In this document: in pieces, positions 32,343 through 37,040 of the stretch
Layout of the letters: every line of letters starts with the position of its first letter
Numbering within the stretch: the stretch's first letter is position 1
NCBI RefSeq assembly: GCF_016862175.1
Contig: NZ_BOML01000027.1
Coordinates: 62,001 to 126,000, forward strand
Length of the DNA stretch: 64,000 bases
DNA from: Paractinoplanes durhamensis
GTDB lineage: Bacteria; Actinomycetota; Actinomycetes; Mycobacteriales; Micromonosporaceae
Reading direction: 5' to 3'
Made by a program: the position numbers and the translations under genes
Notes under the pieces: model-generated
What the model was told of the DNA's origin: nothing
Database searches by the model: none
What the model saw: the letters and a program-made list of their open reading frames with translations, nothing else

Positions 32343-34694
<2,352 letters not shown>

Positions 34695-34702
34695 ACCGCG
34701 GC

Positions 34703-34729
34703 GACCAGGCGGTCGTGAATTCTGTGACA
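34703..34729 (-). promoter_or_regulatory. ECF41-like promoter motif pointing into uvrA-like 3' end
   Basis: Read on the minus strand: TGTCACA, 16-base spacer, GGTC. It would drive antisense RNA into the uvrA-like gene. TGTCACA is near-palindromic, so the same box could instead serve the plus-strand sigma gene 40 bases away, although no good -10 lies in that direction. Confidence 0.35.
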
Positions 34730-34769
34730 CCCGGTGGGAATGGGCCCGCCAAGAGACCACGATGACGGG

Positions 34770-35660
34770 GTGACCGATCTCGAGGACGCTGCCGCTGTCT
34801 TCGCGGGCCTGCGGCCGCGGCTGTTCGGCATCGCCTACCGGATGCTCAGCAGCGCCACCGAGGCGGAGGACCTGGTGCAGGACGTGTGGCTGCGCTGGCA
34901 GACCACCGACCGCAGCCGGGTGGAAAATCCGGGCGCGTTCCTGGCCACGACCACCACCCGGCTCGCCATCAACGAGCTGCAGTCGGCCCGCAAGCGCCGC
35001 GAGACCTACATCGGCCCCTGGCTTCCCGAGCCGGTCGACACCAGCGCCGACCCCTACCTGGGCGCCGAGCGCGAAGAAGCCCTCGCCTTCGCTTCGCTCA
35101 TGCTCATGGAGAAGCTCAGCGCGAACGAACGAGCTGCGTACGTGCTCCGGGAGGCGTTCGATTATCCGTACGCCCAGATCGCCGACATCCTGCAGTCGAC
35201 CGAACCGGCGGTGCGGCAGCTGGTCAGCCGGGCGAAGAAACACATGACCGGCGAGCAACGTACGACGGTGGCCCCGGCCGCGCAGAAGGAGCTGCTCACC
35301 ACGTTCCTCGCGGCGGCGCGCACCGGCGACCTGGGCGAGCTGGAGCGGCTGCTCACGGCCGGGGTGTCCAGCATCTCCGACGGCAACGGGGCGATCCGGG
35401 TGGCCCGGCGGCCGGTGGCCGGTTCCGAGCGGGTGGCGAAGTTCTACTCGGCGCTCTCCAGTTGGTACTGGGAGGGGGTGGAGATCTCGTTCGTCACCAC
35501 CAACGGGCAGACATCGGCGGTGCTGCGGCGGGCCGGCAACCTCGAGGGCGTGATGACGGTGATCGCCTCCGCCGACGGCATCGAGCAGATCCTGTGGATG
35601 GCCAACCAGGACAAGATCGCCCCCTTGGTTTCCCTTCAAGGCGGTCACAAAGCTGGGTAG
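34770..35660 (+). CDS. ECF41-family sigma factor with SnoaL-like C-terminal domain
   Basis: 296 residues. Sigma region 2 (RLFGIAYRMLSSATEAEDLVQDVW) and region 4 (LSANERAAYVLREAFDYPYAQIADIL) are followed by a SnoaL-like extension of about 110 residues. The extension retains the two ECF41 marks in diverged form: SDGNG for DGGG, and ANQDKI for NPDKL. In ECF41 factors this domain controls activity in place of an anti-sigma factor. The GTG start fits the family beginning TDLEDAAAVFAGLRPRL. Confidence 0.92.
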   Translation: MTDLEDAAAVFAGLRPRLFGIAYRMLSSATEAEDLVQDVWLRWQTTDRSRVENPGAFLATTTTRLAINELQSARKRRETYIGPWLPEPVDTSADPYLGAEREEALAFASLMLMEKLSANERAAYVLREAFDYPYAQIADILQSTEPAVRQLVSRAKKHMTGEQRTTVAPAAQKELLTTFLAAARTGDLGELERLLTAGVSSISDGNGAIRVARRPVAGSERVAKFYSALSSWYWEGVEISFVTTNGQTSAVLRRAGNLEGVMTVIASADGIEQILWMANQDKIAPLVSLQGGHKAG

Positions 35661-35669
35661 TGCCCGGTC
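35643..35669 (+). promoter_or_regulatory. ECF41-type promoter of the solo regulatory-domain gene
   Basis: GGTCACA, a 16-base spacer and GGTC differ by one base each from the ECF41 consensus TGTCACA/CGTC. The -10 lies only ten bases before the next ATG, so the transcript would be nearly leaderless. The -35 lies within the last codons of the sigma gene. Confidence 0.5.
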
Positions 35670-35679
35670 AATTACGGGC

Positions 35680-36012
35680 ATGCACGGTTTCGTGCGCGAG
35701 TTCGTCGAAGCCTGCCGGTCGTCCGACCTGGCGGGAGTTCGGGCTGCCCTGGACGAGGACGTCTTCGCGGTGGTCGACGGCCGGGGCCCGGTCTACGGCG
35801 CCACCGCGGTCACCGCGCTGGTCGGCGCCCTGCTCTGCGGCCGGCCGGACACGTCGCTGACCGTGGAGTCGGTCAACGGCGCGGACGGGCTGGCCCTCTG
35901 GCGGGCCGGCCGGGCCCTGGTGGTGGTCGCCGTCGACGCCGAGGCGGCGCTGATCACCGCCCTCTGGATCGTGGTGAGCCCGGCCAAGCTGCGCGGCTGG
36001 CAACGGCCGTGA
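35680..36012 (+). CDS. Free-standing SnoaL-like domain resembling an ECF41 C-terminus
   Basis: 110 residues with an NTF2/SnoaL pattern: FVEACRSSDLAGVRAALDED, then VVDGRGPVYG in the place of the ECF41 DGGG motif, VESVNGADGLALWRAG, and the end ALWIVVSPAKLRGW, where SPAKL occupies the NPDKL position. There is no sigma region 2 or 4. It looks like a lone copy of the regulatory extension of the sigma factor encoded 20 bases upstream. It could compete with or titrate that domain, or bind its ligand. Function is inferred. Confidence 0.75.
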   Translation: MHGFVREFVEACRSSDLAGVRAALDEDVFAVVDGRGPVYGATAVTALVGALLCGRPDTSLTVESVNGADGLALWRAGRALVVVAVDAEAALITALWIVVSPAKLRGWQRP

Positions 36013-36101
36013 GCCTTGTATCGGGCGACCATGGCCGGCGGCCCGCCGCCGCGGCAGCGTGGTGGTCATCCACACCGGACGCGCGGGCAGCTTCCACTAC
36101 C

Positions 36102-36287
36102 GGTGGCGGGCCGGTGCGGCTCGAACATCCCGTCGTGGGGATGCTCGAGCCGCACTACCGGCGGCTCATCGACCCGGACCTGTCGCAGCAGTTGGTGATC
36201 TACGCGCCGGCCACGTCGTCGGCCGACCGGCTCCGGCTGCTGTCGGTCATCGGGCCAGCCACTCCCGATACGACGTCTTCACGATGA
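36102..36287 (+). pseudogene. 3' remnant of an XRE/MmyB-type regulator
   Basis: A frame reading VRLEHPVVGMLEPHYRRLID, then LSQQLVIYAPATSSADRLRLL, matches the C-terminal end of the MmyB-like ligand-binding domain of XRE regulators (compare RIRHPRVGDLELL in the intact gene near 41 kb). The HTH and the rest of the domain are missing upstream. The end is buried in the convergent epimerase gene. Confidence 0.5.
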
Positions 36288-36981
36288 CCGTGCCCTCCTT
36301 GGCGATCAGGGCGTCGCCCTTCGCGGCGGCGAACATGCCGGCCGTGTCGTCGGTGACCACGGTGCGCTTGTCGTCGTGCGCGGCCAGGGTGATCCGGCCC
36401 AGCTCGTCGAGCGGGAACACGTCCGGGCCCGCATAGTTGCGGGTGCCCAGCAGCGGGCTGCCCACGGTGACGTCGGCGACCGCCTGCGCCACCTCGGCCG
36501 ACGCCATCGGCTGCACAAGCGTCGCCGGCAGGCGCACCGTGTTCTCGTCGGCGGTCCAGGACAGCACCGCGTCGACGAACTCGAAGAACTGGGTGACCCG
36601 GACCACCGAGTACGGGATCGGGCCGGCCTTGAGGATGTCCTCCTGCAGCACCTTCGCCCGGTAGTAGACCAGGTCCGGCACCAGCTCGGCGCCGACGATC
36701 GACAGGATCACGGCGTGCCCGACCCCGGCGGTCTTCGCGGCCGCCAGCATGTTGTCCATGCTCGTCCGGAAGAACGCGGGCGAGGCGTCGTCGAACGTCG
36801 GCGAGTTGCTCAGATTGACCACCGCGTCCGCCCCGGCCAGGGCTTCGGCGAGCCCCGCGCCGCTGATCAGGTCGAGGCCGCTCGACGGCGAGTGCGGCAC
36901 CGCCTCGTGGCCGCCCGCGTTCAGAATCTTGACGACCTGCGAGCCGATGAGTCCGGTGCCACCGATGACAGCGATCTTCAT
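36247..36981 (-). CDS. NAD(P)-binding epimerase / NmrA-like SDR (ECF41-associated)
   Basis: 244 residues. Rossmann start MKIAVIGGTGLIGSQVVKIL and the atypical-SDR course DAVVNLSNSPTF, VILSIVGAE, YYRAKVLQEDIL. NAD-dependent epimerase-like proteins are one of the three classes regularly encoded next to ECF41 sigma genes and controlled by them. An ECF41-like promoter lies upstream, so this is the probable target gene. Substrate unknown. Confidence 0.9.
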   Translation of the reverse strand: MKIAVIGGTGLIGSQVVKILNAGGHEAVPHSPSSGLDLISGAGLAEALAGADAVVNLSNSPTFDDASPAFFRTSMDNMLAAAKTAGVGHAVILSIVGAELVPDLVYYRAKVLQEDILKAGPIPYSVVRVTQFFEFVDAVLSWTADENTVRLPATLVQPMASAEVAQAVADVTVGSPLLGTRNYAGPDVFPLDELGRITLAAHDDKRTVVTDDTAGMFAAAKGDALIAKEGTVIVKTSYREWLAR

Positions 36982-37013
36982 TGTCCTGCCCTCCTGTTGG
37001 GTTCGACAGCTCA

Positions 37014-37040
37014 GACAGGGCAGGCGCCGGATCTGTGACA
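37014..37040 (-). promoter_or_regulatory. ECF41-type promoter of the epimerase gene
   Basis: On the minus strand: a perfect TGTCACA (-35), 16-base spacer, then TGTC, one base from the consensus CGTC. It lies 33 bases upstream of the epimerase ATG. The spacer length equals that of the motif at 35643-35669. Confidence 0.65.

Follow-up and report, generated by a model that had tools for sequence, protein, structure and literature searches.

A free-standing ECF41-type SnoaL domain encoded beside an ECF41 sigma factor gene, a candidate trans-acting regulator in Actinobacteria

It is known that ECF41 sigma factors, for example Ecf41Bli, Ecf41Rsp and SigJ, carry a SnoaL-like domain fused to their C-terminus (Wecke et al. 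2012, PMC3426412). In the same paper, partial removal of this extension raised the activity approximately 20-fold and 120-fold and full removal abolished it. The mode of control by the fused domain and the signal sensed were left open in 2012 (PMC3426412), and the relevant part of a 2022 review still infers a ligand for the ECF41 domain, naming none (PMC8999054). In the window, that is, the whole analysed stretch of 64,000 nucleotides from the 10.5-Mb genome of Paractinoplanes durhamensis, a domain of this type is encoded by a gene of its own, directly behind the gene of an ECF41 sigma factor. Hence the question whether this protein, hereafter the solo, serves its neighbour as a regulator, or is an enzyme, a helper or a relic. 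The features of the locus are as follows.

34703-34729, minus strand: ECF41 promoter motif TGTCACA-n16-GGTC, directed away from the sigma gene, towards the end of the gene 32343-34694
34770-35660, plus strand: ECF41 sigma factor, 296 aa, with region 2, YIGPWLPEP linker, region 4 and its own SnoaL extension (DGNG, NQDKI)
35643-35669, plus strand: ECF41-like promoter motif GGTCACA-n16-GGTC, overlapping the 3' end of the sigma gene, 10 nt before the solo ATG
35680-36012, plus strand: solo ECF41-type SnoaL domain protein, 110 aa, ATG start; DGRG at residues 33-36, SPAKL at 100-104, W107
36009-36287, plus strand: remnant of an MmyB-like XRE regulator, matching positions 105-168 of 168 in the Pfam profile MLTR_LBD (E 9.9e-7)
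36247-36981, minus strand: NAD(P)-binding epimerase/NmrA-like gene (by Pfam), convergent, present in relatives as well
37014-37040, minus strand: ECF41 promoter motif TGTCACA-n16-TGTC, in front of the epimerase gene

The sigma factor has region 2, the WLPEP linker, region 4, the extension and a COE neighbour, all of them traits by which ECF41 factors are recognized. It matches TIGR02957 at E 2.9e-95 with 318.7 bits, slightly below NCBI's cut-off of 323.25, and the SigJ model with 266.9 bits, below the cut-off of 271; its match to the SigJ structure 5xe7 has an E-value of 2.8e-46. The neighbour in question, the epimerase, is the "E" of the COE genes, known targets of ECF41 factors (PMC3426412). 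Only the end of the ligand-binding domain is left of the XRE regulator, for which relatives have longer genes, and the cluster of the window is a shortened form of the gene order seen in relatives.

The solo ATG lies 19 nt past the end of the sigma gene at 35660, and the frame is also predicted by a codon-usage gene caller trained on the window. Compared with its two closest relatives, the solo has dN/dS of 0.39 and 0.40, two to three times that of the sigma factor. The gene caller, the relatives and dN/dS together rule out a chance ORF. Pfam detects no sigma region in the solo and, up to E 10, matches it only with SnoaL_2 (PF12680; E 7.8e-5, 23.7 bits at a gathering cut-off of 27 bits) and SnoaL (E 0.088); for the solos of loci L069 and L080 no Pfam match is seen at E 0.1. 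The NCBIfam matches are confined to the C-terminal extension of ECF41-type models, namely positions 169-278 of 281 in TIGR02957 (E 4.2e-14), 176-289 of 293 in the SigJ model (E 1.1e-9) and 180-280 of 290 in the SigI model (E 6.7e-8). A generic SnoaL or cyclase protein is ruled out by this combination of Pfam scores below the cut-off and strong ECF41 matches. As the sigma regions 2 and 4 are absent by both Pfam and NCBIfam, the protein is a detached domain rather than an ECF41 sigma factor. The earlier note, made from the letters alone, had described a 110-residue SnoaL-like protein without sigma regions behind an ECF41 gene, and this description holds; so does its pairing of motifs, since in the alignment DGRG and SPAKL fall on DGGG and NPxKL. 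An unrelated SnoaL group, which would have spoken against that reading, is not where the profiles place the solo: they put it nearest to the ECF41 extensions. Used as a PDB query, the single solo sequence gave no useful match, and the first match of a solo-only profile was SigJ 178-298 (E 3e-12). Thus, the solo of the window is a free-standing ECF41 regulatory (SnoaL-like) domain, albeit a divergent one, with a 7-residue deletion common to the solos of L088 and L092, its closest relatives, and with C32 lost.

AlphaFold models of the window solo (pLDDT 94.9) and of the canonical-length solo of L080 (pLDDT 94.7) are both NTF2-like, and by TM-score their best structural matches are SnoaL-bearing sigma factors, among those listed. 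For the L080 model the best TM-scores over the query, among the 50 matches listed, belong to SigG1 (0.68, 0.70) and SigJ (0.67, 0.66). For the window solo the highest ones are those of SigG1 (0.73 and 0.74), again among 50 matches listed, SigJ not being one of these 50; the lowest E-value is that of an epoxide hydrolase of M. tuberculosis.

A first scan of genome contigs with the single solo protein confirmed no relatives. In the genus group 43 of 67 genomes match the window solo at E 1e-3, some of the matches being short ORFs (21 listed, plus L013) and the others fused ECF41 domains. A profile of 22 solos, searched against 300 genomes of the taxonomic family, found at least 37 solo-like places besides the window at 110.9-168.4 bits and one further place at 104.1 bits; as the latter sits amid the best fused domains (104.7 bits and below), the gap between solo and fused scores is clear but imperfect. 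Two of these 38 examined places (L103, L104) turned out to be hybrids, described below. The earlier note had also asked about linkage in relatives, and it is conserved: 31 of the 38 places (32 of 39 with the window, among the matches listed) have an orthologous ECF41 gene upstream and in the same orientation, orthology being taken as regions 2-4 that are at least 70% identical. Such linkage is also seen in other orders. The linked gene is either adjacent or separated by one oxidoreductase gene, and the distance from sigma to solo ranges from -4 to 1531 nt in 29 places, to which L093 and L097, with solos missed by the gene caller, are added. In the remaining seven of 39 (L070, L071, L081, which has a run of N, L091, L101, L103 and L105) no orthologous sigma was found near the solo. 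The complete order sigma - NDH - solo - SDR - MmyB-like regulator - epimerase is present in seven of the 38 places, among the matches listed (L072, L079, L080, L082, L086, L087, L098), while the rest are shortened. At the level of the 300 genomes, a sigma orthologue (at least 255.2 bits) occurs in 35 of 37 genomes with a solo versus 32 of 263 others. Since 32 of the 67 genomes with a sigma orthologue have no solo, the solo is dispensable.

A scan of named genomes yielded 17 loci, eight of which repeat genomes of the family search. The nine new ones come from Frankia canadensis (L163), Saccharothrix (L164, L169, L172, L177), Amycolatopsis bullii (L166), Kibdelosporangium banguiense (L167, with an intact sigma), Catenulispora rubra (L173) and Micromonospora sp. 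U21 (L176). The sigma gene is upstream of the solo in all of them except L176, where the sigma core is missing, a sigma remnant is spread over two frames and the solo match is cut short; in L177 a frame change breaks the solo. Taken together, the solo is a member of a conserved actinobacterial family.

Several loci have a structure of their own. In Frankia canadensis (L163, 4076-5339) the oxidoreductase has no N-terminal part, and its remnant, in two frames, runs in frame into the kept solo. In L101 (504-8630, genome G033) two divergent solos on opposite strands flank an oxidoreductase gene, and the region also has three ECF41-like sigma genes. In L139 (2927-4150, minus strand) the gene that directly follows an orthologous ECF41 gene encodes a Methyltransf_19 protein with a SnoaL domain joined to its N-terminus.

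The motif GTCACA-n16-KGTC has three matches in the 64-kb window, all of them inside 34703-37040, at 0.32 expected; three matches were reached in one of 100 shuffles. With the full -35 element TGTCACA and one mismatch allowed there are three matches versus 1.16 expected, five shuffles reach three, and the mismatch falls in the solo's copy. The earlier note had proposed an ECF41-like promoter for the solo, and a motif of this kind is present as GGTCACA-n16-GGTC; in the closest relatives, L088 and L092, the motif is likewise 10 nt from the ATG. At the place of the motif 34703-34729 the relative L088 has an alpha/beta-hydrolase gene divergent from the sigma gene, which gives this part of the window the look of a deletion scar.

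Across the loci, the relaxed motif NGTCAC-n16-18-NGTC precedes 27 of 27 oxidoreductase genes (Pfam Pyr_redox_2; called NDH here), 45 of 52 epimerase genes, 14 of 45 called solos, 36 of 549 other genes and two of 71 sigma genes, two solos being counted twice due to the overlap of L101 and L105. Between the sigma gene and the next gene, which in loci with a solo places it between sigma and a close solo on the same strand, directly or across the NDH gene, the motif is present in 31 of 40 loci with a solo versus six of 33 orthologous sigmas without one (Fisher p 4e-7, kinship ignored; in the controls the 160 nt that follow the sigma were used throughout, in the test loci 68-246 nt). By type, all 18 sigma-NDH-solo loci have it, as do 13 of 22 sigma-solo loci, hence it is absent between the genes in nine of these 22; exact TGTCAC occurs in 14 of 18, five of 22 and, without a solo, four of 33. 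Both counts omit repeats of earlier loci (L161, L162, L165, L168, L170, L171, L174, L175), L141-L160, and L176 for its missing sigma core and shortened solo match. The between-gene count further omits L105 and those loci where both genes were not called (L070, L071, L081, L091, L101, L103), takes in L177 despite its broken solo, uses coordinates set by hand for L093, L097 and L167, and treats L163 as sigma-solo despite the oxidoreductase remnant. Thus, judging by the placement of the motif, the sigma factor's own regulon seems to include the solo in most loci, either directly or by way of the NDH gene in front of it, and the sigma gene itself does not look like a member.

The origin of the solo was considered in two trees of SnoaL domains, both built on 115 columns, with many open forks and with identical domains dropped. 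In the tree of 150 domains the 44 solos group in a single starred clade (SH-aLRT 95) and the domains carried by the partner sigmas themselves in a separate one (starred, 99), while two hybrids, L103 and L104, are sister to the solos at 89 (not starred). A recent duplication of the neighbour's own domain is ruled out by the separation of the two starred clades, and the solo is therefore not a recent copy of it. A class-wide search gave matches in 13 of 394 genomes at E 1e-27, and these relatives were added to the second tree of 136 rows, in which the cis domains, that is, those fused to a sigma factor, were thinned to 22 rows. Here the 44 solos (99) and five hybrids together form one starred clade of 49 (96); L155_1 and L167_2, which are not solos, were left out of this tree and of the motif count below. 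The five hybrids (L103, L104, L179, L180, L181) combine region 2 with a SnoaL domain, and neither the linker motif nor Pfam region 4 is seen in them. Region 2 passes the Pfam cut-off in L104 and L181; L179 and L180 score under it, and L103 shows no such match. All but L103, i.e. four of five, stand directly behind an ECF41 gene. A further hybrid, encoded by the first gene of L191, has no placement in the tree. We read these forms as a graded series leading from a paralogue through region 2 plus SnoaL to SnoaL alone.

A second lineage, from another taxonomic family (f21), is also a starred clade (99) and includes degenerate full-length paralogues, shorter forms and one free-standing SnoaL protein (L183, identical with L224). 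The latter (L224, 4980-5396, minus strand) has 138 aa and its own TGTCACA-n16-GGTC motif; the nearest ECF41-type match is a piece of a C-terminal domain approximately 4.8 kb away, at the edge of the stretch. In this taxonomic family, 31 of 150 genomes match the L182 paralogue at E 1e-45, and 12 of 30 loci were examined for neighbours. In seven of the 12, a readable ECF41 core lies beside a SnoaL-bearing ECF41 paralogue without the linker; the stretch examined for L200 stops within the sigma, and in L196, L201, L204 and L206 none was seen. Six of the seven sigma factors (L193/L223, L194, L195, L197/L225, L198, L199) have lost most or all of their own SnoaL domain, while L202 retains both this domain and the SnoaL-bearing paralogue. 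Five of the six match only the first 25-38 positions of the cis profile. The sixth, L225, stops right after region 4, and 7 nt further the epimerase gene begins; L225 is the weakest split case, at 49% identity and with region 4 slightly below the Pfam cut-off. Behind the split sigmas, every frame of 25 or more codons in the stretches examined was searched with the profile, unfiltered, and at E 1 no remnant of a SnoaL domain appeared. The strongest evidence for a SnoaL domain serving a neighbouring ECF41 factor in trans comes from these loci, but they lie outside the window's family: the protein involved is a different, full-length paralogue and not the solo lineage.

In the 44 solos D33, K103, L104 and W107 are conserved in 100%, P101 in 97% and G34 in 68%, and the partner sigmas' own domains have DGNG (N in 92%), variants of NPxK[I/L] and no terminal W. 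The cis NPxKL is intact in seven of 39 sigmas with a solo versus 19 of 32 without (Fisher p 0.0005), but with kinship respected the difference is not significant, there being only four starred independent pairs. Of the four well-filled bins of equal core identity, two show a lower identity of the C-terminal domain, one shows no difference and one shows a higher identity. The evidence for relaxed evolution of the cis domain in the presence of a solo is hence mixed, NPxKL erosion being inseparable from kinship. As a separate observation, C12 (88%) and C32 (93%) are common in the 44 solos and not in fused ECF41 domains, the window keeping only C12; given the oxidoreductase neighbour, a thiol switch formed by these cysteines is possible.

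Since relatives keep both genes together and show steps of the separation, the solo probably controls the sigma factor as a separate protein. The scenario we favour, with somewhat more confidence than doubt, is that the detached domain acts in trans on the neighbouring sigma factor, probably as a sigma-induced negative feedback. The solo would descend from an ECF41 paralogue beside this sigma that lost region 4 and region 2. In the window the sigma would transcribe the solo gene from the ECF41-type promoter between the two genes, and in other species the solo would be transcribed along with the oxidoreductase gene. As a contact between NPDKL and the linker is summarised in the part of PMC7730460 used here, we infer that the solo would bind with its NPxKL face to the WLPEP linker of the sigma, where the cis domain would sit. 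Once docked, it would lower the activity of the sigma, and this damping might respond to a ligand or to the redox state. The feedback in trans that the earlier note suggested, with a decoy as its other option, fits the promoter motifs and the split loci of family f21; the solo is, however, no copy of the neighbour's own domain and represents a separate ECF41 lineage. Against the favoured scenario speak the sigma orthologues without a solo, the seven places without an orthologous sigma and the nine sigma-solo loci without a motif between the genes. Moreover, Ecf41Bli was active in B. subtilis, a host without ECF41 (PMC3426412), so that some ECF41 factors manage without a partner.

The solo could instead be merely one more protein made under ECF41 control. 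It would then be a small NTF2-like protein, an enzyme or a binder of ligands, that acts alongside the oxidoreductase, SDR and epimerase and leaves the sigma untouched. It is encoded in the same cluster as these enzymes, the start of its gene reaches into the end of the oxidoreductase gene in several loci, and its fold is shared with epoxide hydrolases and ketosteroid isomerase; moreover, in L091 it persists behind the oxidoreductase with no orthologous sigma in the vicinity, and in L139 a SnoaL domain is fused to a methyltransferase. However, the solo is nested among sigma-bearing proteins in the tree, the residues it conserves best are mostly shared with fused ECF41 domains, and no invariant catalytic set of epoxide hydrolase or ketosteroid isomerase is apparent in it. 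It has also stayed beside the sigma in 21 loci (22 less L163) that have no intervening oxidoreductase gene, and a role restricted to metabolism leaves unexplained the sigmas that lack their own domain beside a SnoaL-bearing paralogue. We therefore consider this explanation unlikely, though it is the strongest of the competitors.

Somewhat less probable still is a positive partner, a co-sigma that completes the sigma or stabilises it on RNA polymerase. Such a role would agree with the loss of activity of Ecf41Bli and Ecf41Rsp upon full removal of the extension (PMC3426412) and with the L225 sigma, which ends right after region 4 beside a SnoaL-bearing paralogue. The other five of the six split sigmas, however, keep the first 25-38 positions of the domain, and the remainder, which they lost, is mainly inhibitory according to Wecke et al. 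(PMC3426412); in addition, orthologous sigmas are conserved in 32 genomes without a solo. That the solo is a decaying duplicate without function seems to us very improbable, as it is under purifying selection: its scattered occurrence, which takes at least 18 changes on the best sigma-core tree, the broken or shortened solos of L177 (frame change) and L176, and a dN/dS above that of the sigma are in line with decay, but dN/dS is still about 0.4, the motif set is conserved in 44 solos and the linkage is conserved across orders.

Beyond the window, the two families raise the more general idea that ECF41 regulation can be unplugged, in that actinobacterial paralogues became trans-acting SnoaL regulators and some sigmas lost their own domain; here we see the balance as even. 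If the trans-acting role is true, the solo would be the first cognate protein partner of ECF41 sigma factors, and anti-sigma-like proteins could arise by reduction of a sigma factor. A natural separate copy, together with sigmas without their own domain, would allow the domain to be added, removed and titrated without engineered truncations. The open-access literature searched contained no description of a free-standing SnoaL regulator of an ECF41 factor.

Among known systems, the fused ECF41 factors (PMC3426412) are alike in the domain family, the positions of the motifs, the promoter type (TGTCACA-n16-CGTC) and the COE gene neighbours. They differ in that the domain is fused and, in the parts of that paper relied upon, no anti-sigma gene is nearby, whereas here a separate gene stands beside an ECF41 factor that retains its own domain. 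As is expected of an anti-sigma gene, the solo gene has a sigma gene as close neighbour in 32 of 39 places in the family. The SigG1-RsfG pair of Streptomyces tsukubaensis (ECF56; PMC7730460) likewise consists of a SnoaL-bearing ECF factor and a co-transcribed neighbour, RsfG, which binds it as an anti-sigma factor. As far as the cited part of PMC7730460 goes, however, RsfG has no conserved Pfam domain and is not described as a SnoaL protein, so it is set apart by description, and SigG1 is an ECF56 factor without NPDKL. In SigO-RsoA of Bacillus subtilis, as summarised in the portion of PMC8103513 used, sigma functions are also divided over two neighbouring proteins; there the split runs between regions 4 and 2, while L194, L195, L198, L199 and L223 keep the core together and have the regulatory domain separate. 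Finally, PhyR mimics a sigma factor in order to titrate an anti-sigma (PMC8103513, same portion), whereas the solos retain no sigma part at all; what its sigma-like domain has in common with the lineage proposed here is a degenerate ECF-like protein in the role of a regulator.
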